Assembly (NCBI GenBank): GCA_938743325.2
Contig: OW568865.1
Coordinates: forward strand, 1,116,001 to 1,180,000
DNA from: Pycnococcus provasolii
Taxonomy: Eukaryota > Chlorophyta > Pseudoscourfieldiophyceae > Pseudoscourfieldiales > Pycnococcaceae
Length of the DNA stretch: 64,000 bases
Direction: 5' to 3'
The notes beneath the pieces are model-generated. The model made no database searches, had not been told where the DNA came from, and saw only the letters and a list, made by a program, of their open reading frames with translations. This document shows, piece after piece, positions 5,541 through 55,413 of the stretch (its first letter is position 1; each line of letters begins with the position of its first letter). The position numbers and the translations under genes were made by a program.

Positions 5541-7055
5541 TCAGTGCGCTCCAACTCCTCCAAGCACGGCGAGCAGCGCCTTCTTCACCTCATTCATGAT
5601 CATGGAGGGCAGAGTGGCCACACCCTGCTCAAGTGCAGTCGCCATCTGCTTGAACGCGTTCGAAGACACTTCAGCCTTGATCTTGTCCAAGATGCTCACA
5701 CTGTCCGTCGGACCTGTATGGGATGCGCTGGTGCACTTTTCGACAATCTGCTTCACAAGCTTGGCAACCTCGGATGTCATGTGCCGCGTCTCAATCAGAC
5801 GCATCGTTGAGACACTCGGCGACGGATCACTAGCCGCAGGAAGAGACACCACGAACACCACGCCTTGGAAGCACTGGTCAATCCTGTCAGCCATCTCCTT
5901 GCGTGCACGTTCCATGATCTCCATCCGCATGCCAAACATGCCCACCTGCACCGCAGCCTCATGCTTACTCAGCTGAGATGAACCGACCTGCACCTCCTCG
6001 TGAGGTGGAGTGGCATCCTCAAGGCACTCTGAGAGGTGGCGCTTGATCCAATCTCCCATGAGCTTAGGAAGGGTTGGCAGCACCGCCTCAAGCTTTTGGA
6101 AATTTGCCGTGCAAACGTGGCGCTCAATCAGGCTCTTGTTAAGGACAAGAATATCGGTCGGCTTATGAGGCAGGATTTTGAAACCGCGTTGGATTTCTTC
6201 TTGTGAGTGCCTCAGCACGTCGCGGGCATGCGTCACCAGGCAGGAGAAGGCACTAGACTCGTTGTCTGCAGCTCCAGCATTGGCGGCATGAAAGTTGTTG
6301 ACGAGGAGAGTGCAGTACTTCTGTATCACCTCCCCAATCTCCTTGTGCAGTCGAGCATCGGTAAGCTGCGATAGCTTCTCAAGCGCTGAGTGGAGCTCCT
6401 TCTCCGCGGCCTCCTGAGCACCAACTTCACTGCAAGCCTTGGCGAGAATCATAGCGTTAGTCACATCAATTTTCGGCTTTTTGCATGAGTTGTTCAGTTT
6501 GCGAAGTCTGTCTGGTTCCGCGGTCTCCAACTTGCGAAACCTTTGGTAAAGGGAATTTTCAGTGCGTCCGCGAATTTTCAGTGCCTTGAATTCGTCGTCA
6601 TTCAAGACGACCGACCAGGCTTGCCTGCTATTTCCGATGGCATCCTTGTGCTTGTCATACGCTTTGACGAGCAGAATAAGCTCTTCGGTAGTCCAAGGGG
6701 GGGGACCACCATTCTCCCTGTCATCGTCAGCGTCCTCGACTGCAGCACCATCCACCGGTCCATCGGGCTGCTTCCTCTTCAGGCCCGTACTCGCGTCGTC
6801 GAGCATATCTGCACGCTTGCAACGATACTCGTAGTCCCCAACGGAGCCCGTGGCCGGAACGCGCTCCTCAATTTGATAGGTATTGAAGTAGGCGCGCAGC
6901 TCGTCATCAATGGCCTGCTTCAGTTGGGTGTTCGTGGTGTTCGAGCCGTAACTTTCCACGCAGTGTTTGCGCATGTCGTTGATGCTAACCCATTGTCCTG
7001 GGTTGCCATGCACGGCAGGGAGAACCACGTCTTCGATGATGTATTTCAGCGACAT
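5541..7055 (-). CDS. SANT/Myb-like domain protein, function unknown
   Basis: 504 residues from the ATG at 7053-7055. The first ~85 residues form a small globular region (MSLKYIIEDVVLPAVHG onward) I do not recognise. Around residues 118-185 there is a SANT/Myb or trihelix-like helix-turn-helix pattern: PPWTTEELILLVKAYDKH, then QAWSVVL, then GRTENSLYQRFRKLE, with the usual spacing of tryptophans and hydrophobics. The rest is long amphipathic helix, probably coiled coil. DNA or chromatin binding is inferred only from the SANT-like segment. The gene is transcribed away from the palindrome at 7130-7423 and forms a divergent pair with the unknown gene at 7471. It may belong to a mobile or accessory block. 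Confidence 0.6.
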   Translation of the reverse strand: MSLKYIIEDVVLPAVHGNPGQWVSINDMRKHCVESYGSNTTNTQLKQAIDDELRAYFNTYQIEERVPATGSVGDYEYRCKRADMLDDASTGLKRKQPDGPVDGAAVEDADDDRENGGPPPWTTEELILLVKAYDKHKDAIGNSRQAWSVVLNDDEFKALKIRGRTENSLYQRFRKLETAEPDRLRKLNNSCKKPKIDVTNAMILAKACSEVGAQEAAEKELHSALEKLSQLTDARLHKEIGEVIQKYCTLLVNNFHAANAGAADNESSAFSCLVTHARDVLRHSQEEIQRGFKILPHKPTDILVLNKSLIERHVCTANFQKLEAVLPTLPKLMGDWIKRHLSECLEDATPPHEEVQVGSSQLSKHEAAVQVGMFGMRMEIMERARKEMADRIDQCFQGVVFVVSLPAASDPSPSVSTMRLIETRHMTSEVAKLVKQIVEKCTSASHTGPTDSVSILDKIKAEVSSNAFKQMATALEQGVATLPSMIMNEVKKALLAVLGGVGAH

Positions 7056-7129: not shown

Positions 7130-7423
7130 AGAATGATGGCCAGAGGCGGGTAGTTTGCGGAGTATGCGGCCATGGCGTGCGGGAGTTGCGAATGGCGTGC
7201 GGGAGGAGGTGCGCTCCCCCGGGAGCAGTTGGGGCTCCGCGGGGGCGGAAAGGCTCCCGGAAACCTTTTTCAACTTTCGCCGAGGGATCTTTCCGGGAGC
7301 CTTTTCGCCCCCGCGGAGCCCCAACTGCTCCCGGGGGAGCGCACCTCCTCCCGCACGCCATTCGCAACTCCCGCACGCCATGGCCGCATACTCCGCAAAC
7401 TACCCGCCTCCGGCCATCACTCT
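7130..7423. repeat. near-perfect palindrome (134-bp arms, 26-bp loop) between divergent genes
   Basis: Left arm 7130-7263 and right arm 7290-7423 are reverse complements with about three mismatches (near 7133, 7142 and 7248). The 26-bp loop is 7264-7289. The arms are GC-rich and contain CCCGGGAG and GCGTGCGGGAG words that recur within each arm. Each arm also carries, in outward orientation, an ATG opening the same short peptide (MAAYSANYPP), so transcripts leaving in either direction would have matching leaders. The palindrome lies between start codons at 7055 (-) and 7471 (+), where a shared promoter would be. A foldback-type element insertion is the alternative. Confidence 0.9.
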
Positions 7424-9242: not shown

Positions 9243-12200
9243 ATGGCTGAGGCTGCTGACCCGTTTCTTGAGCAACTGATGAAGGAAGTGGATGAAGTCT
9301 CATTTCCCAATGATTCTACCAACCTTTCGCCACTTGTCGGTGAAGCTGAAACCGGCGGACAGCCAAATGAAGCACAGCAACATACAGCTTCGCAAGCAGT
9401 TGTGAGTGCACATTCTCCACAGCATGCTTATGCTTCAGGAGCTGACGGAGGAGCAGCGGCGGGCGCTGGTGGTCTCCCACTAGCTCATGCGAATACCACC
9501 ACCACGCTTAGATGCGATTCTCCTCCTTTGCCGAGTCCACGTCAACGCGCTCAGGAAGCGCTTGGCGACCCTCCTCACATATGGAGTTCCGGAGTGCTGA
9601 TTCCTGAAGATACGGAAATTGAGTGGTATCCAGCCCAATCCGAACTTGACGCAGACGATAAGTTTGCTGGGCAAGCGAAGTACTGGCTCAAACACGAGTA
9701 CTGCACACAGAGACTGCAAGTACAGATTTTTGGCTTCGAGGCTAAAATTCGATTCGTCTGTGGCTCAGTCATGTTCTTCAAGGAGAAAGAAAATAAATGG
9801 ATAGACAGCACAGAACATCTAAAAAATAAAAGTAAGATCGAATGGCACGACTATGTTCGAGGCACAGGCACTTTTAAAAGAACTTTGAAAGAGCCCAGAC
9901 CACCTGGCAAAAGAAAAAGGGATGCAGAGGTACCTAACCCTCCTCAGCGAATTCTTGATGAAGCATATTACATGTTTCTTCCGAGGAAATCAAATACATC
10001 AGAAAAATCAAAAATGTCCCTTGAAGACTATCTCCTTCGAACAGGTTACTGCCTCGCGACGTACATCGAAATCGATCAAGGAAACTGCGCAGAATCGTCA
10101 GCGACTACAGGACCATGCTACCTAGGACTCTGGTGGGGTGTACTTCAAGATGCATTTTGGAATCCCGATGATCATAGGAGAGGCAAAGTCGGCATCGTGG
10201 ACAAATTCTGGAATTCGCTTGAAAAGCTCAGGGTATTACATCTGCTTGAACAGCTCAAGGATATTGTGTCGCAATCAAATGATGGCGCTGCTTCGCAAGG
10301 ACCCGTGCAAGGCGCTGCGCCTTTGTGCCAATGCGACGCATCGGAATTTCGCGGCAAGCTCGACAAAGGGATACGCTTCCTGTGGGATTTGCAGCACCAT
10401 CCATCGGTACGTAAGGCAACTTGATTTGTCCTTTTTTTTTTGACGGATATTCAGTTATGTGCTAACAACAATATTTCCCACCTCCTATACTACTACTACT
10501 GTACAGACGATCAAAACGGTAGATAAGATCTTGGCATTTCTCCATGAAAACGCTGATGCATGCAAAGCCCTCGGCATCCAAAATCACCCACTTCCGTCTG
10601 AAACAGTGCGACAAGTTGCAGATGCCGTTGATGATCCCAACTTCAAAAAGTATTTCCTTGCATTCGGTGGGAACTTTAAAGGAAAACAGAATATCGCGGA
10701 AGAGGGAAAGAAGGTGATTGATTCTCTGACAAATCTAATGGCATGGGGAACTTTATACATGGATGGTAACGGGGATCTGAGCGATAAAATGTGCGGTCTT
10801 ATTATTCGTGAATTGATTCAGAATACTTTTGATCAAGCACTTGCCAAAAACAGCTATGCTCGCTCAAATTTTGAGAATCCCTCAAATTATCGCGTGGAAT
10901 GGAAAAAGGACTTGGTCCAAAGTCTTATTCAATGCACCAGAGAAGATCGACCAGATTTCCGGGTCGGTTGCATGCTCATGATGATTGAACTGTGCTTCAT
11001 CTTGGATGCTAAAGGATGTTTCGGGCAGCCAGGCGTGGCCGCCAATCCGAATATTTCTTTAGAGAAAATTGCGTCGGGGTGCTTCCTGATCAAGGCTTGC
11101 CTGTCTTCAGAGCAAACTGTGAATGCGATTCGCCACTGGCTCGCCCATCACATTGAGGATGCCGCCATCTTCTTTCGCCGCTGGCGCATCTCGCACGTTG
11201 CTCTTCCGCCGTTGCTGCCGTCATCCTCGCTTGGGAATCACACGATCGTCACAATCCCTGCTTGGGTTTGGAACAAGGAGTTGGTTGATGAGGTGTGCAC
11301 ACTCTCTGCTATGGAGGCGGAAGGTACACATGAGCTGAATCCAGTATCTGGCTCGTTTCGCAGCTTCGAGGATGCTCGCACGTACGTGCGCACGCTCGGT
11401 CTGAAGAGCAAGGAGGAGTGGGAGGAGTGGAGGAAGTCAGGCAACCGACCTCCCGACATTCCGGGCAATCCTCAGACAATGTACAAGTCATCGGGCTGGA
11501 CATCGTACGGTGACTTCCTCGGATACGCGGAGGGCAAGGTGGCTGGCTCGTTTCGCACGTTCGAAGATGCGCGCGTGTACGTGCGCACGCTCGGTCTGAA
11601 GAGCTATACGGAGTGGCGTGCGTGGAGTGCGTCAGGCGCGCGACCGCACGACATTCCGAGCAAGCCTCATACGACGTACAAATCGTCGGGCTGGACGTCG
11701 TACGGCGACTTCCTCGGAGGATACGCGGTGGGCCAAGGTGCGCGTGGCTCGTTTCGCACGTTCGAAGGCGCGCGCGCGTACGTGCGCACGCTCGGTCTGA
11801 AGAGCCAGAAGGAGTGGAGGGCGTGGATTTCGTCAGGCGCGAGGCCGCACGACATTCCGAGCAGTCCTCAGACAACGTACAAGTCATCAGGCTGGACGTC
11901 TTGGGGCGACTTCCTCGGATACGCGGAAGGCAAGCAGGCTCAGAAAACAAAAGAGCACAACATGGAGGTTGGTGCTGACGAGGTTGGTGCTGACCCCGTC
12001 TCCCCAGCTGACATCCAAGATGCGCGTACCTTTTTTACAAACATGCCTGACTCGGCGCTTACCTTGTTTGATTCGCTCGTCATCAACGGACAGTTCCTTG
12101 TGCGTCCGAACCTCGACGGTGACGAACACAAATATCAGCAGGCTAGCGTTGTGCACACGCTTGCCTACTTTGGCGCGACCGATCATCAGGCGAATGAGGA

Positions 12201-14163
12201 ACGTCTACCTGCGGCTGTGAGCATCCCGACCGGCGCTGGCAAGTCGCGCATCATCTGGGCGCTTGCGGCCGCTTTCAGCCTGTACGAAGGTGCACCCGCG
12301 GGGAAACAAGGACGTACGCTCGTCATTACTCCGAGCATCCGCATCCGAGACGGAGCAAGCGATACGTGGCAACAGCTACAGAACACGGGCGTTCTTGGCG
12401 AAGGTGGCGAGGGCACTGGTGGCATCGTTCACCTCGTCCCGAGCACAACCTTCCAGGCAACCGACGCGGCGGATCGGCCAGCCCACTGGGTGAGCGGTAT
12501 TTTGCAGGACTCTGGCACGGCGACGCCAACGACGGCATTTCGCGACGCGAAGGTTGTGGTTTGCACGTGGCAAACGCTCAACAAGGTGATTGAGAAGGCC
12601 AAAGAGCGCTTTCCGGCAGGAGCGCTCGACGGCTTTCTCGCGTCGTGTGGCTTCGCGAACTTCATCGTCGACGAGACGCACCACCATAGCGCCAACTCGT
12701 ACCAGAATCTTGTCAAGATGCTTCAGCCGGATCGCACAGTGCTCCTTTCGGCGTGCTTTGAGCGACTAGACGGGAAAGTCATCAAGAGGCACACCGTCTT
12801 CTCGCGACCGCTCACGTGGGCTGAAACCAACAGGCTCGTCAAGCGCACCACGCGCCACGCGTTGGTGTTCGGTGACACAGTCACAATCAACAACGTGGAA
12901 GTGAAGAAAGATCAGGACCCTGTCAGCTTCACTTGTGGGGAACTCGAGCGTGCGGACGACATTGCTCGTGGGAGGGCTGCCGGCGACAATGAGGATGATG
13001 ACGATGACCCGGACGAGGACGAGGGCGAGGACGAGGAGGACGACGGCGATGACGCGGGTATGCCTACAGTGCCAAAGGCGGTTCGCGATCGCCTTCGACG
13101 AGCCATCGAAAACAACCCCACGATTCAACTGCGGCTCGCGAAGACGATGGTCCGAGCTATCCTCGACAAGAAAAGAGACACGGGTTGCCCCATCGCCGGA
13201 CTGTGCTTTTGCCGCGACCAAAGGCACGCCATGCAGGTGTGCAGTCTCATCCGCTCTCTGCGTATTCCTTCGCCTGATGCCGCGCCAACCTACCTTGAGG
13301 TCGACTACATGTCGTCGGATCGGGGTGCCGAAAACGACGACGTCATACGTCGTCTGGAGAGTGGCGAACTCGACATCGTGTGCGTCGTGGCCATGCTTGG
13401 TGAAGGGTATGACTACCCACTGTTCGGCGTCGCAACATTTTTCACGGCACTTGGCAGCAAGGCTCGCAGCAAGGCGTACCAAGCCGCTGGCCGTATTCTC
13501 CGCATCATCCCAAGAAGTCGGGTGCCTGGCACTGTCACCTCCGAGCAGCTCCGCCGTGCGCAGAATGCTGACATATTTTACCTGAAGTGCTCGTGCATGT
13601 CTCGCCTCCTGATGGACATCGGCATCGACAAGAGCTACGAGGTTGTTGATAACGTTGGTGGTGCGCATGCGCCGGATGGTGGACCGGGCGAAGACGATGG
13701 CGCTGGTACTGGAGGTGCCCATGCGAGTCAGCGCCGCCGGCTGAACAATGGCACTGTCGACGCGACGTACGCTGAAGAGGAGATTGAGCACCACGAACGT
13801 GTTGGAGGTCCTAAAGGCGGGATTGCGGCGGGAGTGTATGATCCCACGAACCCAGAGCATGATCTCATCCCCGACGAGGAACGGTACAACCAATTGTTCG
13901 CCGAGGCGCGTGCGCGCCGCACACAACAGGCACGGCAGAATTTGACTGATTTGCAGCGCAGCTTCGAGGATGCGCGTGCTTACGTGCGCACACTCGGTCT
14001 GAAGAGCGTGGAGGAATGGAATGCGTGGAGTTCGTCAGGCGCGCGACCGCACGACATTCCGAGCAATCCTCAGACGACGTACAAGTCATCGGGCTGGACG
14101 TCGTACGGCGACTTTCTCGGATACGCAGAGGGCAAGGTGGCGAATACCTTGAAGTGCGCGTAA
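9243..14163 (+). CDS. SF2 helicase with four integrase-type repeat units, two exons
   Basis: Exons 9243-10406 and 10507-14163 join in phase 0 to give about 1,606 residues. The N-terminal ~670 residues are unrecognised, apart from an acidic/polar start and the basic RPPGKRKRD near 225. Three ~65-residue repeats begin near residues 671, 736 and 803, and a fourth near 1539. The shared pattern is SFR-FEDAR-YVRTLGLKS, then W, SGARPHDIP, then YKSSGW-S-GDFLG. This resembles the 'phage-integrase repeat unit' reported in algal and large-virus proteins. Between repeats 3 and 4 is an SF2 helicase core: Walker A PTGAGKS (~962), DETH (~1110), motif III-like LLSACF, an acidic insert, and motif VI QAAGRILR (~1380). 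It probably acts on nucleic acid in the nucleus. The mobile-element or viral link is inference. Confidence 0.75.
10407..10506 (+). other. spliceosomal intron in the helicase gene
   Basis: 100-bp intron, phase 0. Donor GTACGTAAG at 10407, a perfect TGCTAAC branch-point word near 10457-10463, and a pyrimidine-rich run to acceptor TACAG ending at 10506. The upstream frame hits a stop 18 bases past the donor, while the downstream frame opens inside the intron, so the two open frames are one gene. Confidence 0.85.
11353..11940 (+). repeat. three tandem coding repeats (integrase-type repeat units)
   Basis: Units start near 11353, 11548 and 11749 (195-200 bp each) inside the helicase gene; a fourth copy lies at about 13957-14140. 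DNA identity is high, with CGCACGCTCGGTCTGAAGAG shared almost exactly between units, which suggests recent duplication or gene conversion. Confidence 0.85.
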
Positions 14164-17105: not shown

Positions 17106-17643
17106 GGATGGAAATCTATCGGATAAGAAGAATGCCACGGTGGAGACGTGTGTGGTGAAAAATTCAGTCAAAAATATTGATTGACGCGTCAGAAAAAGAG
17201 GGCGAAAAGTTGACCAGAAAAGTAAAGTTTAGTCAGAAAAAAGGCGAGAAAAAAGAACGGAGAAATGAAAATGATCAGCTTCTGGAACGAGCCGAAACAG
17301 TGCCCGTGGGGGATAACAAAAATTACAAAAGTTCCCCCGCCAATTAGTCTAACTACTACCACCTCACCAACAACAGGTCTCACCAACTACGAACCCGAAC
17401 GAGCTCCTAACCCTAATGCCCTAATGCTCCTAACCCTAATGCCCTAATGCTCCTAACCCTAATGCCCTAATGCCCTAATGCCCTAATGCTTACCCTTCCC
17501 CCCTGTGCTAACCCTAACCCTAATCCTGCTCTCTCTGCTTCCTCTCTATCTCCCCTCCGCACCCCCTCGCCGACGCGACATCGTCCGGTTTGGATCACAA
17601 CCAACATCGGCAACGGCGTCCCATCCCATCCCAACCAACTGCG
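17106..17643. other. divergent intergenic region with telomere-like tract
   Basis: Shared upstream region of the cathepsin Z (-) and GT77 (+) genes. It is A-rich near the protease start and then holds a long degenerate CCCTAA-type tract at about 17408-17526. No gene seen. Confidence 0.5.
17408..17526 (-). repeat. degenerate telomere-like CCCTAA / CCCTAATG tract
   Basis: Alternating CCCTAACC and CCCTAATGC/T units in two registers, with three consecutive ATGCCCTAATG copies near 17461-17488. It ends about 120 bp before the GT77 start codon. This is the longest telomere-like tract in the window, but also the most degenerate. Confidence 0.7.
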
Positions 17644-18945: not shown

Positions 18946-19551
18946 TTACTTTTCGACGACGATGTCGTCCTTGTCACCACGTTTCTGCAGGTCGTTCCAC
19001 CCTCGAATCCACGGCGTTCCTGCGGGCGCCTGCGCGCCGGCTGACTGTTTGCGCAGGAAGTCGTCGCTCGCCTTTTTGATTTGCGTCCATATGGGGTTGG
19101 TTGCGACTTCTTCGGGCGGGTTCGTTTGGTTCGTGAGCCAGCTGTACAGGTCTGGGTTTTCGCACTTGAGTATTTGCGCGTAGAGTTTAAGTTGTTCGTC
19201 GTCGAGTGTTCTGATGTTCGCTTCCGCCCACTGTCCCAGTAGTAGGTCCAGTTCAAGGAATCCGCGTTGTTTGCTTCTGTATAGGAGTGCGTTAACGATC
19301 CTTCTTTTGTGCGACGCGTCATACCCCGCGGCATCTTCCCCCAGAGCAGGGAGCGGGGATGGCATAATGGGCGGGTTGAGAACGGGAAGAGACGAGGATG
19401 ACGAAGATGACGACGACGACGACGATGATAAGAATCTCATAAGAGCAGGAGGAGCACTACCATGTAAGATACCACCACCACCACCACCACCACCACCACC
19501 ACGGAGGATACCAGTCACGATGATACGCACGGCAACGCTGTGACGCGACAT
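18946..19551 (-). CDS. SDHAF2: succinate dehydrogenase assembly factor 2 (FAD attachment to SDHA)
   Basis: 201 residues from the ATG at 19549-19551. The C-terminal ~110 residues are a textbook SDHAF2/Sdh5/SdhE domain: RRIVNALLYRSKQRGFLELD, LLLGQWAEANI, then LYAQILKCENPDLYSWLTNQ. The RGFLELD segment contains the conserved RGxxE surface that promotes covalent FAD attachment to the succinate dehydrogenase flavoprotein in the mitochondrial matrix. The N-terminal ~85 residues are basic and then low in complexity (Gly run, Ser run), fitting a mitochondrial presequence with expanded microsatellites. It converges on the GT77 gene with only 66 bp between stops. A TTAGGGTTTTAGGG word and the start of the DIRS element lie about 110 bp upstream. 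Confidence 0.92.
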   Translation of the reverse strand: MSRHSVAVRIIVTGILRGGGGGGGGGGILHGSAPPALMRFLSSSSSSSSSSSSSLPVLNPPIMPSPLPALGEDAAGYDASHKRRIVNALLYRSKQRGFLELDLLLGQWAEANIRTLDDEQLKLYAQILKCENPDLYSWLTNQTNPPEEVATNPIWTQIKKASDDFLRKQSAGAQAPAGTPWIRGWNDLQKRGDKDDIVVEK

Positions 19552-19668
19552 GGCGTTTTTTTGGCGGGCTGGAATGAAGGGGGGGGGGGGACGCGTGCGC
19601 CACAAACCTGTGCACAACAAGCTTCTTCGAGAAGCCTCAGGAGATTCTCGGGAGCGGGGGAGTTAGGG

Positions 19669-19692
19669 TTTTAGGGGGGGCCAGTATTGCCA
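19669..19692 (-). repeat. DIRS element repeat B2 (24 bp)
   Basis: TTTTAGGGGGGGCCAGTATT then GCCA on the plus strand; identical to 19974-19997. Terminal repeat on the 3' side of the element in its own orientation. Confidence 0.85.
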
Positions 19693-19785
19693 ATGAAGGT
19701 CATCTTTTACACAAACCGAAATTAAAACCAAAAGTAGGTCTCCTGCTCCAGTAACCAACTATAGTCAACAGGGAGGGAGGGTGGG

Positions 19786-19975
19786 AGGTTGTTTGCGAAG
19801 CAAGCAACCAACAGCAAGAGTGGATACGCGCGAGCAGCCTTAAGGGAGAGGCCGCCGGAGGGTCTCGAGACCCGCCGGGCGGCCGCTCCCCAATACCCTT
19901 GTAGGTACAGGGTTAAGCTGCGCGAGCGACTCCCCCCAATCAAAAACCCCAATTAAACAAGTAGAACTGAAGATT
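19786..19975 (-). repeat. DIRS element repeat A2 (190 bp)
   Basis: Direct repeat of 21048-21237 with a constant offset of 1,262 bp and no difference seen. It contains an internal inverted motif GGGTCTCGAGACCC. It abuts repeat B1 at 19974-19997. Confidence 0.9.
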
Positions 19976-19997
19976 TTAGGGGGGGCCAGTATTGCCA
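19974..19997 (-). repeat. DIRS element repeat B1 (24 bp)
   Basis: Second copy of the 24-bp B repeat, fused to A2 to make the internal B1A2 unit. In split-repeat elements this unit is used to complete circular replication intermediates. Confidence 0.85.
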
Positions 19998-20003
19998 TCA
20001 TAG

Positions 20004-20576
20004 TCACGTATCTCCACGAAGAGGAGAGACGAGTGTCACCAATCGTGACGCCAAATTGGCCAGCGGCGAGCTCCAAGGCGCGGCAGGCGCGACAGGCACC
20101 TCCACAGGAGGCGGCGGCAAGCCGATGAGGTGGCCAAAAAGGAAACGGGCGGCATCGTCAACGACGACACTGTTGTCGACGTAGTGAGTGCCGACCGCAT
20201 GCGAGTTGGCAGCCCAGCCCGCGATGTAGTTACGTCGATCTGGCGAGACGTTCATCGCGGTCACCGCGGACGCGAACCCAGAGCGGAAGCTCTTGGGAGC
20301 GTAATGTCCGTTGGGTGGGGCTGCAGCTCCTACAGCTTTCAGCGCCACCGGCAGCCAGCGTGCAAACGCGTCGCCACGTGCCTTCTCACCAAGGTTGAAG
20401 AAGTACGTCGCACGCGAGCACACCCGACGGCGCATCCGATCGGCCCGGAGGCGTGCCCACCATCTCAGATCTCGGAGCGCCTGTTTCGTGAGTGAGACGC
20501 GTCCGTTCCATCCTTGCAGCGTGCCGATCACGTCGTAGATCTCGCGTAAGTGGAACCTCGCCGGCCGCAGCGCCAA
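20004..20576 (-). pseudogene. DIRS RNase H end plus tyrosine recombinase domain
   Basis: 190-residue open frame. It opens with an RNase H-type segment typical of DIRS pol (LREIYDVIGTLQGWNGRVSL, then LRDLRWWARLRADR) and continues into a tyrosine recombinase core. There the Arg box is APKSFRSGFASAV and the C-terminal box IAGWAANSHAVGTHYVDNSV has the expected His and the nucleophile Tyr. The reverse transcriptase that should precede the RNase H domain is absent, so the frame is a remnant after internal deletion. Tyrosine recombinases integrate the circular DNA form of these elements without target-site duplication. Its domain boundaries are approximate. Confidence 0.75.
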
Positions 20577-20884
20577 GACGCGTGTCCCTGTTTCACCGAT
20601 TCAGCCTCTAGGTGCTGAAGAACAGGGTTCGACGGCAAGGAAAGCAGTGTTGGCTTGCCACGACGCGGAATCCCAGTCGTAGGTAGCGACTCCGCGTGGC
20701 GAGCGTCCGGATAGCTGGCCGGCACCACGTAATCTAACGTAGGCTCGCCTCCTTCTTCGGCCGCTTTCTTGCCCTTCTGCTCTGCTTCTGCAGCTGCGCG
20801 GCGCTCCTGCGCTAGCGCAATCTCCAGCTGCAATATTTCGTGACGAGCTTCCAGAACCTCGAGTTCGTTCGGCGCGTCACCCAT
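20528..20884 (-). pseudogene. gag-like N-terminal fragment of the DIRS element
   Basis: 118-residue frame starting with an ATG at 20884, upstream (in element orientation) of the RNase H fragment and in another frame. The first ~50 residues form a Glu/Ala-rich helix (EVLEARHEILQLEIALAQER) like the coiled start of gag proteins. The end reads into the RNase H region in the wrong frame, marking the deletion joint near 20585. Gag identity is inferred from position and composition only. Confidence 0.45.
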
Positions 20885-21047
20885 TAATCAATCGATTAAG
20901 AATCCAACAGTACACTTCCAATCGAAGGTTGCTGATGTTTCGATCTAAACGTAGGTATTCAGACCGTTTCGGTACACGAACTACGTCCCTCGAAGACGCG
21001 TTCGGCGTGTGTTCGACCTCCCACTACTCGCGTGTAGTGCGGCTGTT

Positions 21048-21237
21048 AGGTTGTTTGCGAAGCAAGCAACCAACAGCAAGAGTGGATACGCGCGAGCAGC
21101 CTTAAGGGAGAGGCCGCCGGAGGGTCTCGAGACCCGCCGGGCGGCCGCTCCCCAATACCCTTGTAGGTACAGGGTTAAGCTGCGCGAGCGACTCCCCCCA
21201 ATCAAAAACCCCAATTAAACAAGTAGAACTGAAGATT
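21048..21237 (-). repeat. DIRS element repeat A1 (190 bp)
   Basis: The 5' terminal repeat of the element in its own orientation; pairs with 19786-19975. It abuts a TTAGGG tract at 21237-21254. Confidence 0.9.
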
Positions 21238-21254
21238 AGGGTTAGGGTTAGGGG
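21237..21254 (+). repeat. short TTAGGG tract at the DIRS junction
   Basis: About three TTAGGG units starting exactly at the element end and lying 50-70 bp upstream of the RCC1-like start codon. The other element flank (about 19662-19668) also reads GTTAGGG. Confidence 0.75.
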
Positions 21255-21306: not shown

Positions 21307-22536
21307 ATGGACGCCACCTTGGCTGTGTTCGAGTCGTCAAAGTCGTTCATCTGGTACACGGTCGCTCTTGCACTTCTTGTCAGCGTCGTCGTGTGGTCCT
21401 TAGCAGTTGTACTCATCAGCTCGTCAGGAGGGAAAAAGAACAACAACCAGACAGCAGAAGATAAGATTGGACGGACGGAAGGACGGATTGGAAGGACGGA
21501 CGTCGACGACTCGTCCCTCCGCAACGACGCCGTGCGCGTGTTCCTGGACTGGCTCGTCGCAGTGCACCGCCCGCGACGACTCGCGCGCGTCCGCGCGCGC
21601 ATCGAGCAGCAGCGCACCGCAAGACGCAACGCGACGCTCTCGGCAGGGGGAGTGCACTCACTCGGCATACGAGCTGATGGGAGTGTGGCGTGCTGGGGCA
21701 ACAACGACGAAGGCCAGGCGCCACCCGCAGGCGTCTTCGGGTGGCTTCGTCGCGGTCGCGACTTCGTCGCGGTCGCCGCGGGTTCTTCTCATTCGATTGC
21801 GCTAACGCGCAATGGGGACGTCGTGTGCTGGGGATGCAACGACGACGGCCAGGCACCTCCGTCCGGCGTCGCGGGAGACTTTGTCGATATTGCCGCGGGT
21901 GATGCCCATTCAATTGCGATTCGACGCGACGGCAGTATCGCGTGCTGGGGCCGCAACAACGAAGGCCAGGCGCCTCCCGACGGCGTGGACGGCGACTTCG
22001 TCGCAGTTGCCGCGGGTGCTCTTTACTCGCTCGCGCTGCGACGCGACGGCAATATCGCGTGCTGGGGATGCAACGACAACGGCCAGGCGCCTCCCGAAGG
22101 CATTCCAGGAGACTTTATCGCGATCTCCGCGGGTGAAATTCACTCGTTGGCGCTGCGACGCGACGACAGTATCGCGTGCTGGGGATGCAACGATGAAAAC
22201 CAGGCGCCTCCCGAAGGCGTTCCAGGAGACTTCATCGCGATCGCCGCGGGCGCATTTCATTCGGTGGCGATCCGACGTGGCGGCAGTGTCGCGTGCTGGG
22301 GTGAGAACTACGAAGGCGAGGCGCCTCCCGCCGGCGTGGACGGTAACTTCGTCGCGATCGCTGCGGATGGTCACTCTCTCGCGCTACGACACGATGGGCA
22401 CATTGTATGCTGGCATGGCTTTGACGAGGATGACGAGGACTTTGACTTGGACGACTACGGCCAGGCGCCGACGCAAGAGGATGAAGTTGCTCGTCTCAAC
22501 AGCACACCTTTCATGACCGAAGTCCACATTCTGTAA
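21307..22536 (+). CDS. membrane-anchored RCC1-like beta-propeller repeat protein
   Basis: 409 residues from the ATG at 21307. Near residues 15-40 is one hydrophobic segment (FIWYTVALALLVSVVVW onward), followed by a polar linker rich in Arg/Asp. From ~115 to the end are seven to eight RCC1-type repeats of about 38-40 residues with the core G-HS-ALR-DG-VACWG-N-GQAPP. The last unit is degenerate and acidic (EDDEDFDLDDY). RCC1-type repeats fold into a seven-bladed propeller used for protein interaction or guanine-exchange; in this short variant the function is open. A single N-terminal anchor suggests a membrane-tethered or lumenal propeller. The gene starts just 70 bp from the DIRS element, so its promoter may overlap the telomere-like tract. 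Confidence 0.8.
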   Translation: MDATLAVFESSKSFIWYTVALALLVSVVVWSLAVVLISSSGGKKNNNQTAEDKIGRTEGRIGRTDVDDSSLRNDAVRVFLDWLVAVHRPRRLARVRARIEQQRTARRNATLSAGGVHSLGIRADGSVACWGNNDEGQAPPAGVFGWLRRGRDFVAVAAGSSHSIALTRNGDVVCWGCNDDGQAPPSGVAGDFVDIAAGDAHSIAIRRDGSIACWGRNNEGQAPPDGVDGDFVAVAAGALYSLALRRDGNIACWGCNDNGQAPPEGIPGDFIAISAGEIHSLALRRDDSIACWGCNDENQAPPEGVPGDFIAIAAGAFHSVAIRRGGSVACWGENYEGEAPPAGVDGNFVAIAADGHSLALRHDGHIVCWHGFDEDDEDFDLDDYGQAPTQEDEVARLNSTPFMTEVHIL

Positions 22537-24412: not shown

Positions 24413-24452
24413 CCCTAATCATAACCCTAACCCTAACCCTAAACTCCCGATC
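24413..24452 (-). repeat. telomere-like CCCTAA tract
   Basis: Three perfect CCCTAA units flanked by degenerate ones. It lies 100-135 bp upstream of the FAD oxidase start codon; in that gene's direction it reads TTAGGG. Confidence 0.75.
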
Positions 24453-41923: not shown

Positions 41924-43219
41924 CGTTGTCCTTCGTGCACCGCCGCCGCCTCCTCCTCCTCCTCTGCCCAAGGATACGCTCTGCCTGTGTTCGTTCGCTG
42001 GCGTCCTTAAAGTCGCGCAAGTTTCTCTCAAGGTGTGCGCGCGCGACCCTGAGAACGTGTACCTTCTCCTGCAAGTCGTCCAGGAACTGTCCACCTGGCC
42101 AGGAACATCTCCTGATTGACAGAAAAGGAGGCAACTGGCCGACGACGACGAACCGGCAAGGTCAACGTTGAAGTTGAAGTTGAAGTCCCTCTGAAACTGG
42201 CCAGACGTGGAGGTGGAGCGCCTGGCGCCACCTCTGGCGCTGTTCTCGTTGGCGGACATGACGGCCTTGCCAGGGCCAAGCAAGGAACCGCTGTTCTTAG
42301 TCTAAGGGCTGTTTGACAAAAGCGAAGGGCCGTGGTTTGCCAAACTGACACCTGGTTTGCCACGGGGGGAGGGAGGGGAGGGGAGGGGGACCCTGTTGCC
42401 TGTTCTTTCTGCACACTTCGTCTATGGTTCTTTCGCGGGTGCACCGGGTGGGGTTCAACTTTCAATAATGTCTTGGAACAATGGGCATGGCACCATGGGT
42501 CTTGTGGGACCTCTTGTGGGACCCCGGACCCGTCTCGTCCTCGTGCAGTCGTGTTGTCTGTCCTCCCTCGCACTCGTGTGGTTCTTTCGAGCTCCTGGGA
42601 GGTCTTTTTTGGTTTGAGTTTGCTCTCCTCCTCCTTCTTTCGAGCCTTTTGCTTTTGGTGGAAGGGTCGGGTCCCCTTCTTCCCTTTTCTTCTTTTCCCC
42701 CTTCTTTTTCCCCTTCTTTTCCTTCTTTCCGACTCGCTCACGGGGTTACAGTATGTAGGGGAGAAATCCTTCCTATCGTACTTCGTAGGATGGTACTTAC
42801 CCGGCTTCCTCTACTGTAAGGGATACACCGTTGTCCGTTCCTCCTTCATGGATCTCCACCCGCCTCGCCGCCGGACTGCAACACCTTCCGATTTCCGAAG
42901 ACTTGTTATGTGGGAAGTTGTACTTACAGTATTTAGGACACGCTCGTGAGCTCACGTGCTTCAGGTTCCAAGGTAAGACTTGAGAGACGCAGCGCGCACA
43001 TCGGAAACAACGGCACGTGGCAAAAACCCGTGTGTCAAAGGCACAAGAGGGAGGGAGGGACCTGCCTCAAGACGCATTAGGGTTAGGGTTAGGGTTAGGG
43101 TTAGGGTTAGGGCTGGACTCGGGGTCTGAAATGATCTGGACTTGTTTTTTTCGTTCCCCCCCTTTTCACATCTGCGGCGGCGGCGGCGGCGGCGGCGTCG
43201 TTGTGGAAACCTGTTCGTC
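41924..43219. other. divergent intergenic region
   Basis: About 1.3 kb between the giant-protein gene (-) and UTP22 (+). It has a G-rich run (42364-42390), T/C-rich stretches (42630-42730), small repeats with GTACTT and ACAGTA words (42775-42930) and a clean TTAGGG tract (43077-43113). Open frames here look like chance frames over low-complexity DNA. Confidence 0.5.
43077..43113 (+). repeat. perfect TTAGGG tract
   Basis: Six consecutive TTAGGG units without error, ending about 107 bp before the UTP22 start codon. The cleanest telomere-type tract in the window. Confidence 0.9.
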
Positions 43220-50102: not shown

Positions 50103-50820
50103 TTATGAACACAAGGCGGAGATCCTACAGTATCAACAGGGGAGGAGGAGGACTGTTACACTGTTGTTGTCCCTTCCACCTGGCAGGGCCGCGAATCTCC
50201 CCTGAAGGAAACCTCTCAATGGAAATCACAAAAAGAGAATCAGAAACCTCATCTTTTTCACCCTGAAAAATCTATTACATGAAAATGAACTTCACGAAAC
50301 CTACGGGCTACGGGTAAAAATATTACCCGTCCTGAGACGGATCCCCCAGTCCAGTCCAGGAAAACACATTCCACCAGCTGGCTGACCCTCCGCCCTCCGG
50401 GTCACCTGGCTGCCTCTGGTGTCCACATCCAGGTCCCACTCCCAACTCCCAACTACCATAGTTCTATGTACAGTACAGTACTGTACAGTACAGTACTGTA
50501 AGTTTACCTCCGACTAACTTAGAAAAAAATAATAGGTCCCCCTTGCACTTGCACAGGTCCCTCGCACGCTCCTAAGGTTAATCCCTTGCAGCCTTGCACA
50601 AGTGCACAGTTCCTGTTTCTTGCGGAAAAATACTAATCCAGCACAGGAAAAGGAATCATTTTGCACAATTCCGCATTGTGCTGAATTATCCCCCCCTGAC
50701 GGGCCTCGATGGGATAATCCAGCACAGCGACCAACCCAACGGTCTGGGGGGGCGGTATGCCGCTGCAAGGACAAGAAACACCGATGGGAGCAGCCCATAT
50801 ATACAGGGTCCATATACAGG

Positions 50821-50920
50821 GTCCATGCCTTACAACCGGCCACCTCGACCGCCCACGCACAACCACCGCTAGGTCCATGTCCTATTTTATCCCTCCTCCT
50901 TTTCTATTTTAATCCTTGTC
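50821..50920 (+). repeat. 100-bp direct repeat, copy 1
   Basis: Identical, as far as I can read, to 54574-54673 and in the same orientation. Neither copy has terminal inverted repeats. It has a CCTCCT-rich right half. The two copies bracket the Tyr-rich gene and rhodanese fragment, 3.75 kb apart. Confidence 0.9.
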
Positions 50921-51381
50921 CCGCCGTTTCAGCCAGCATGCGGGCGTGCGTGCCGAGAGGTTGGATGGTCCGGACGTTGGGAAACCAAAACCCAAACCGG
51001 ACCCCAAAGGACAGGCCAGGCCAGAAATGCACCAAGCAACGGTGTATCCCCCAAGGGGGGTGAAAAAACAAGGGGGAGTTTGTTTGGCCCAAGGACCTTT
51101 TCACCCTCGGCCCCTCCGCCCGTTATTTGTTCGCCATTCCCGGCTCATGCGAAAAACTGAACATGTCACGCCTCCTGCATGTGTTCGTGAGTGAGTGCCC
51201 AGTGGTGGTTCGGAGTAGTGCAGCTTACTTCTTTTGCAGGCTTGTATGGTACCTTGGCTCCTTTCGTTCATTGATTGGCTCGTTCATTGATTGGTCCTCA
51301 TCAATCACTGCACGCGTTGGTCGGTTGGTCCTCATCATACCTGATAGATAGGCAGCGCGCAGGCGTTTGTTGATTGGCTCA

Positions 51382-54190: not shown

Positions 54191-54573
54191 ACCTCCCGGT
54201 GGCGGTCTGATGCGCCGAGGCCTTTCCTCGACGGACTGAGCACGATGCTCCTCGGGAATGCGCGCGGCGGCGGCGCGTGTCCCGCGGCCGCGACGACGGA
54301 CGACGGCACGGGCATTTTGTGCACGACAAGCTGGTACGCGAGTTCGTTGCACGTCGCATTGGAAAAATACTATTGGGACTGAGACTTGGAGAAGAGACGG
54401 GGCGTAGTGGTGGGAAACCAGGGCGTACTGCCTGTCTTGGGAGGATTCAAAGGTCGGCGCCTGGCGCTCGATAACTGGGCGGCTCAACGGGGACGGCTGA
54501 AGCGAGTCTACAGGTCGCGATCCGAGCTTGCAGATGCACAACGGCCCTGTACAGTGGCGAGCTCCACCGCCTG

Positions 54574-54673
54574 GTCCATGCCTTACAACCGGCCACCTCG
54601 ACCGCCCACGCACAACCACCGCTAGGTCCATGTCCTATTTTATCCCTCCTCCTTTTCTATTTTAATCCTTGTC
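54574..54673 (+). repeat. 100-bp direct repeat, copy 2
   Basis: Second copy of the repeat at 50821-50920, same orientation. The left flanks share only GTCCATG-type words and the right flanks diverge after TTGTC. Confidence 0.9.
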
Positions 54674-55413
54674 CGTTTCTTGCGGCTGTTTCTTGCACAC
54701 ACTCGCGGATCCACCAATAGACTATGGTGTTGCTTTCATCACCGGTGTTGATTAAGGTGGTCAAGCAACACGCCCGAACGCGAACGCGAAGGGTCCCTGG
54801 GAGCAAGAAACACTCCTCTTGCAAGAAACACTCTTGCAAGAAACACGCAAAAGCGGCCGGCCGGTGTGCGAGGGTGTCCCCCGCGGGGGTGTTTTTCTAC
54901 TGCCCGGGGGGTCTTGTTTTCTACTGCCCGGACGTTTGGTAATTGGTACCCGGACGGATCTGGTTTTTCCCCCTCCCTCCTTTATCTGGACGTGAAGTCT
55001 AACCCGTAAACCTTTTTAAACGTAAAGTGTTTACCGGCACAAGCGCGAACCGGCACTTCCCTTTGTGGTTGGGTTTGGTTTCCCCCCCCGCACGCCACGC
55101 CCCCTTCAGTTGCTCCCTTGTCTTCGAAGTGCTTTGCGGCCTTGCACACCACTACTACCTCGGTGAAATCATGATGAGGCATGGAGGCTCGTTCTGTTCA
55201 TTCTTTCTTCTCCTTGGTTGGTTGGTTGCTTGGTTGGTTGGCCGCGCTCGCTTCCTGGTGGTTTCCTGGGTGGTGCGTGGGGAACGCATCATCATCTCTC
55301 ATTCTCATTCTTGAGCTCTTTATTCCCTTCATTCATTCTCATTCTCATTCTCAACTTATTTTTCCTTGTGCAAGCAAGGCAACTTGGTTCAGTGTCGAAC
55401 TTGAGTGTGAACA

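Follow-up and report, generated by a model that had tools for sequence, protein, structure and literature searches.

A family of tyrosine recombinase (YR) retrotransposons in the genome of the alga Pycnococcus provasolii is inserted at AA^YC, with a preference for the telomeric hexamer at CCCTAA^CCC, where the orientation is uniform and the register all but fixed (^ marks the point of insertion). The element is apparently steered to its landing site, one exact spot of telomere-like repeats within chromosomes; the initial annotation of the locus overlooked this site, and the telomere-hexamer target is the main news of our analysis. One copy occupies positions 19669-21237 (minus strand) of the 64,000-nucleotide stretch of contig OW568865.1 that we analysed (the window). 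We consider it highly probable that this copy is an internally deleted, non-autonomous YR retrotransposon with a Toc3/PAT-type layout, integrated from a circle at (CCCT)AA^CCC in one orientation. To our knowledge, the choice of targets by YR retrotransposons has been little studied; the 42 left and 44 right junctions read here, from one family in one genome, define the target and the joint with which it would pair, so that the circle model of integration is directly testable with purified recombinase.

Insertion sites in telomere-like repeats

We searched 32,333,900 bp (32.3 Mb) in 46 contigs, an algal genome with 51 matches to light-harvesting proteins, using as queries the whole element, its A repeat, its tail plus B2, and the A1 region; each search scored the 40 best among 55 to 101 candidates, so copy numbers are lower bounds. 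Based on the tail search, the element is carried at at least 40 places, the window's own included. Our sample with flanks consisted of 34 loci (L031-L064), together with 18 right ends (16 of them usable) and 10 left ends. The fetched copies are single and internal, not at chromosome ends, and 26 of the 34 loci gave both junctions. The junction count excludes the right end of L085 (B motif not found), L086 (the same place as L052), internal B1A2 joints, and the left end of L046, which has a 6-bp insertion near the start of A1.

On the sense strand, a typical left junction reads CCCTAACCCTAA^TCTTCAG and a typical right junction reads CCCCCCCTAAAA^CCC. Left junctions ended in CCCTA(A) in 23 of 42 cases (23 of 43 if L046, whose left flank ends in CCCA, is included), and 35 of 44 right junctions started with CCC. 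The CCC expectation had been set beforehand for 15 named right ends and held at 11 of them, or at 12 of 16 with one added; before that check, 23 of 28 right ends had CCC. When the flanks of the 26 copies with both junctions were joined into empty sites, 13 read CCCTAA^CCC, a context found at 0.12% of AA dinucleotides in a background of 158 kb from the window and the fetched loci of the same genome (P = 6e-32).

We checked orientation and register without picking a register in advance. Left flanks ended in a full telomeric hexamer in 18 of 42 cases, all of them the same one of 12 rotations (ACCCTA), and right flanks began with a full hexamer in 13 of 44 cases, all of them the CCCTAA rotation. 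Scored by five bases, the 42 left flanks comprised 23 CCCTA, 1 CCTAA, and 0 G-strand forms. More generally, 41 of 42 left flanks ended in A, and all 44 right flanks had C at position 2. Since 19 of 42 left ends lack CCCTA, we regard the motif as strongly preferred but not obligatory. At two loci, L044 and L059, similar stretches of 14-17 bp lie on either side of the insert, like target-site duplications, and these count against a conservative YR reaction, which predicts none.

A (CCCTAA)n tract near the start of contig C1 (567-758) makes TTAGGG telomeres probable for the host alga. The pattern (CCCTAA)4 gave 1,897 plus 1,909 overlapping hits (3,806 genome-wide), and its reversed control gave 0 hits in the genome; among the 100 pattern hits listed, all on C1, 71 were more than 64 kb from the start of the contig and none was within 200 kb of its end. 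This abundance of telomere-like tracts inside the genome is what might be expected if the motif had been acquired later than the insertion, as when telomerase extends broken ends of the element with repeats, but the joined flanks give the uninterrupted motif at half of the complete sites and telomere-like clusters free of the element also exist, and we regard a post-insertion origin as extremely improbable.

As a control, we read four loci (L065-L068) from three other split-repeat YR families of the same genome. These families have A repeats of 155-177 bp; the B repeats measure 22-29 bp in L066, L067, and L068, and none was found in L065. CCCTAA was present at none of the seven junctions (four left and three right) of this small control; the right flank of L066 starts with CCC, and in the right flank of L068 a telomere-like stretch occurs at a distance of about 60 bp.

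The window element (1.57 kb) lies between an Sdh5-like gene (ATG at 19551, minus strand) and an RCC1-like gene (ATG at 21307, plus strand). All five telomere-like clusters with at least two units that the window contains (775-809, 17411-17523, 24413-24442, 43077-43112, and, counted once, the split tract of the element itself at 19663/21253) precede the first ATG of an ORF of at least 200 aa by 54-121 bp; 4.5% of positions lie at that distance from such an ATG, in a control that includes coding DNA and with a range that was set post hoc. Among the copies, 9 of 25 lay between diverging ORF starts within 300 bp, vs 4.1% for random positions (P = 3e-7), and 3 of 25 did so both within 150 bp (P = 0.005) and within 200 bp (P = 0.01). 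When sides were scored singly, an ORF start was found in 13 of 51 cases at 150 bp (P = 0.24), 17 of 51 at 200 bp (P = 0.08), and 27 of 51 at 300 bp (P = 0.0006). With an ORF cut-off of 100 aa, random positions scored nearly as high, which makes that control uninformative. The promoter location of the targets is a lead and no result, the test having been exploratory and its outcome mixed.

Both the position of the five window clusters and the excess of copies between diverging ORF starts would suit a family that inserts into open promoter DNA by short AA homology, with the telomere-like boxes merely sitting in promoters. Mere openness, however, would not produce the fixed orientation and register, the other YR families did not have CCCTAA at the seven junctions read, and the promoter test itself was exploratory and mixed, with the 100-aa control scoring nearly as high; we therefore consider this explanation unlikely compared with recognition of the hexamer.

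A known parallel in target is TATE of Leishmania, a kinetoplastid element whose reported insertion point within the telomeric hexamer is GGG^TTA (PMC6681497) and for which a TT duplication is described (PMC2696322). The family described here lies between TAA and CCC, which is the same position on the other strand, and has AA on both sides; a TATE-type target in fixed register was thus found at half of the complete sites, as a preference and not strictly. The differences are that TATE is described in tandem clusters at chromosome ends, whereas the copies here are single and internal, and that the host group is another one. A search of the titles and abstract starts of open-licence literature surfaced TATE at telomeres and no YR retrotransposon at interstitial telomere-like repeats. 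That the position agrees with the one reported for TATE, in a different host group, suggests either convergence or old inheritance of telomere targeting. We see an even balance of arguments for the broader proposal that, outside kinetoplastids, a YR lineage has adopted the telomeric hexamer as its recombination site at the position used by TATE, and that it finds this site in short telomere-like boxes located 50-120 bp upstream of genes instead of at chromosome ends, with a promoter motif serving as the attachment site and with each landing independent and usually internally shortened.

Two further systems invite comparison. In crustacean nimaviruses, insertion into telomere repeats of the type (TAACC)n has been linked to a YR family (PMC10871703); these are large DNA viruses and no retrotransposons, and their YRs are described in that source as not closely related to DIRS. 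Among viral contigs, we found no relatives of the reverse transcriptase (RT) of our family. The Ngaro elements of Cafeteria burkhardae share the order A1-[ORFs]-B1A2B2 and a YR with the present family, and their target preferences vary by type, with some favouring virophage DNA (PMC8547959); the stem "telomer" has no occurrence in the main text of that article.

Structure and classification of the element

Read on the minus strand, the window copy consists of A1, a body, B1A2, a tail, and B2. The A1 copy of the 190-bp repeat forms the 5' terminus (21048-21237), and its internal counterpart A2 lies at 19786-19975. The 24-bp repeat is present internally as B1 (19974-19997) and as the 3' terminus, B2 (19669-19692). 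B1 and A2 overlap by 2 bp (AA on the sense strand). A unique tail of 93 bp (19693-19785), absent from the initial annotation, separates A2 from B2. The A copies belong to a direct repeat (D3, 19774-19975 / 21036-21237) with 98% identity across 202 bp, within which 19786-19975 and 21048-21237 are identical at 190 of 190 positions; the B copies (D8) are identical at 24 of 24. The repeats and their order are therefore as the initial annotation gave them. A stretch made up of B2 and most of the tail (19669-19773) had 97-100% identity at 39 of 40 scored places, and an exact 190-bp repeat, with the same four repeats in the same order at many places in the genome, is no chance match. As RNA, the A repeat (19774-19975) is predicted to form a long stable hairpin (z = -4.5), and the length differences between A variants fall in and beside this hairpin.

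The termini of the window copy are complete, and its end on the minus strand reads CTAAAA^CCCTAACTCCC. A host TTAGGG unit beside the B2 end (19663-19668) is the remnant of the target, and a host telomere-like tract, (TTAGGG)3, at the A1 end (21236-21253) is the target itself; the first two bases of this tract overlap the end of A1.

A full-length relative of 4,777 bp is present at C4:115324-120100 (L031, 1825-6601), with open frames for a 273-aa ORF1, a 675-aa RT plus RNase H, and an overlapping product of 1,103 aa that ends in the recombinase. The initial annotation had proposed searching the genome for the A and B repeats in the same order around full-length elements, and this locus, among the at least 40 places found, has RT, RNase H, and YR together. 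In Pfam searches, the L031 product matched RVT_1 above its cut-off (E = 1.7e-16) and RT_RNaseH under its cut-off (E = 4e-4; 20.9 bits vs 24.8). A match to Dam (MT) was also under its cut-off (E = 0.04; 14.0 bits vs 28.1); L066 had no Dam (MT) match in Pfam, and the same stretch is similar between L031 and L066. ORF1 of L031 contains no cysteine. RT-RNase H and then YR follow each other in the same direction, and B1A2, tail, and B2 come after them.

Pfam alone did not detect the YR catalytic domain. A profile built from the YRs of L031, L066, and L068 matched Cre (E = 2.8e-10, profile positions 34-338), and five residues, namely R, K, the H-x-x-R arginine, W, and Y, do not vary across the three; we take these residues to have their usual roles in YR. 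The first position of the H-x-x-R box is H in L066, K in L031, and G in L068. In the window copy, the K-x-x-R, W, and Y positions are present in a fused remnant frame (20004-20600, minus strand) in which, based on mapping to the full-length copy, the C-terminal part of the recombinase is joined in one open frame to a piece of the RT/RNase H frame located downstream of the RT core. Pfam returned 0 families at E up to 1 for this fragment, so its identity comes from the full-length relative; by that route we could corroborate the earlier assignment of RNase H and recombinase fragments in the body. A second frame (20528-20887, minus strand) opens with a remnant of ORF1, in gag-like position, and matches the 273-aa ORF1 of L031 almost exactly at its N-terminus.

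The sequence points to a layout of Toc3/PAT type, and kinship to PAT or Toc3 would be a matter of this layout alone; layout features of this kind are described as having arisen more than once (PMC4157794). Toc3/PAT-like elements and the present family share split direct repeats in the order A1-...-B1A2-...-B2 and RT/RNase H and YR in the same direction with the internal repeats downstream of YR, and Toc3 is described as also having a YR that is not inverted and an ORF1 without zinc finger (PMC4157794). The present family differs in the 93-bp tail between A2 and B2 and in its telomere-motif landing site. A methyltransferase-like (MT, Dam) domain following RNase H is a feature of PAT-like/Toc3-like elements, and in L031 it is a sub-threshold hint. 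The PAT-like combination of RT, RNase H, and YR is present in L031, with RNase H under its cut-off, and absent from the window copy.

The initial annotation had proposed a PAT/Kangaroo layout, of which the PAT half, as the Toc3/PAT order, stands and the Kangaroo half does not. Kangaroo of Volvox shares split direct repeats, an algal host, YR, and RT with this family, but in Kangaroo the YR is described as inverted and the internal repeats as placed between MT and YR (PMC4157794). Both features are absent here, the recombinase having the same direction as RT and the internal repeats being downstream of it; we rejected membership in Kangaroo on these grounds. The claim that the repeat order is specific to PAT and Kangaroo has to be withdrawn, as descriptions of Ngaro (PMC8547959) and VIPER (PMC6681497) give the same order. 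Ngaro and VIPER are groups with split direct repeats, as here, and without MT, a domain for which L031 has the sub-threshold Dam match (E = 0.04).

We also considered a DIRS1-like layout and rejected it, as terminal inverted repeats and an internal complementary region were not found. The six inverted pairs in the window were a palindrome inside A or weak pairs of 19-26 nt, and L066-L068 had 0 inverted pairs; L065 had 24, and the five longest shown all lay in a low-complexity stretch (6513-6749).

Repeat identity and a proposed integration cycle

A1 and A2 were identical in 22 of 23 complete pairs. Our motif script recognised 22 copies, all with identical A1 and A2, and omitted L046, L052, and L059. 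L046 supplies the 23rd complete pair, in which the sole difference is the 6-bp insertion in A1; in L052, A2 is cut by a deletion and 154 of 156 aligned bases equal those of A1, and in L059, where A2 is also cut, 88 of 88 bases do. B1 and B2 were identical in 22 of 22 copies. The 22 A pairs represent seven different A sequences, of 168, 177, 178, or 189 bp, and between copies A1 and A2 had a mean identity of 93.5% and were identical in 35% of 462 comparisons. It therefore seems that, within each copy, one A is regenerated from the other. Identity of A1 and A2 within a copy, even though copies differ, is predicted by replication via the B-A joint, and the Ngaro/PAT model, with annealing between repeats, implies near-identical repeats at insertion (PMC6681497). 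The 22 identical A pairs sum to about 3.8 kb with zero differences, which indicates recent insertion; the earlier suggestion of recent activity is borne out by these signs at the level of the family.

The B1A2 joint reads CCCTAAAATCTTCAG, which is the sequence expected for the joined ends of a circular intermediate. In the model for Ngaro and PAT elements, the ends of the cDNA are bridged on B1A2. For the present family, full-length copies would supply the enzymes, the RNA would be reverse transcribed, and a circle would form when the B2 and A1 ends are joined on B1A2. YR would then recombine the circle junction (...CCCTAA-AA-TCTTCAG...) with a target sharing AA, preferably CCCTAA^CCC (CCCTAACCC), leaving the insert bordered by AA on each side. 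If the AA that precedes TCTTCAG recombined with the AA in the target TAA^CCC, the observed junctions would result. Deletions would probably arise copy by copy, during reverse transcription or soon after insertion.

Internal deletions and other repeats

When mapped onto L031, the window copy lacks two segments: about 1,619 bp, including the RT core, at a first junction (20572-20575, minus strand) and about 1,631 bp at a second (20440-20442, minus strand). These deletions take out the RT core and most of the recombinase, so that the copy is unable to encode the enzymes; it keeps the start of ORF1, the RT/RNase H fragment, and the C-terminal recombinase sequence. Its description as a non-autonomous derivative that lost RT and kept both repeat sets was accurate, and its intact termini make movement in trans possible.

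We mapped deletions in 24 deleted copies with 26 junctions, of which 25 were measurable. L038, L049, L053, L054, L056, and L058-L061 are outside this map, having a more broken structure or lacking the other end. Among these loci, L038 (C9:835800-840100) has two 5' element halves head to head, as an inverted pair, and no B end was found in it.

No two of the 24 deleted copies had both deletion endpoints in common. A sister copy on C34 is identical to the window copy across 774 and 463 bp, and its deletion differs. The first right-hand endpoint of the window copy (2265, by mapping) is close to that of L032 (2261), with left-hand endpoints of 645 vs 624, and we take this near-sharing as coincidence. 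Because endpoints are not shared and the C34 sister has another deletion, the short copies look like individual products, without an amplified short family. Four intact repeats in a 1.57-kb copy that has a coding relative would also fit an amplifying non-autonomous family (MITE/TRIM-like), copied in trans as a defined short element; against this, no endpoint pair was shared within the map (the nine further fetched loci and the unfetched copies being outside it) and the sister copy has its own deletion, and we judge this explanation quite improbable.

Microhomology at the deletion junctions was 0-3 bp, with a mean of 1.16 bp vs 0.73 bp for random junctions (P = 0.03). Introns were rejected as the source of the deletions, since 0 of 25 junctions could be read as GT/GC...AG. 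The retrotransposition of spliced transcripts, which would explain why the deletions are internal and mostly leave the termini, is hardly credible given these junction sequences and their microhomology; deletion copy by copy remains our preferred reading.

Several other repeats were observed. The window contains a 134-bp inverted repeat with 98% complementarity and a 26-bp loop (7130-7423), a 196-bp repeat present four times (11349-14142; 76-83% identity to the reference copy), with three of the copies in tandem, and two identical 102-bp stretches 3.75 kb apart (50820-50921 / 54573-54674). In the small-subunit rRNA gene (L097, C2:246614 region), there are apparently, as judged by eye, several extra stretches within what we take to be conserved regions. 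Repeats of 117 bp adjoin two different YR elements, at 21635-22342 in the window and at 6016-6900 in L067; those in the window encode an RCC1-like protein.
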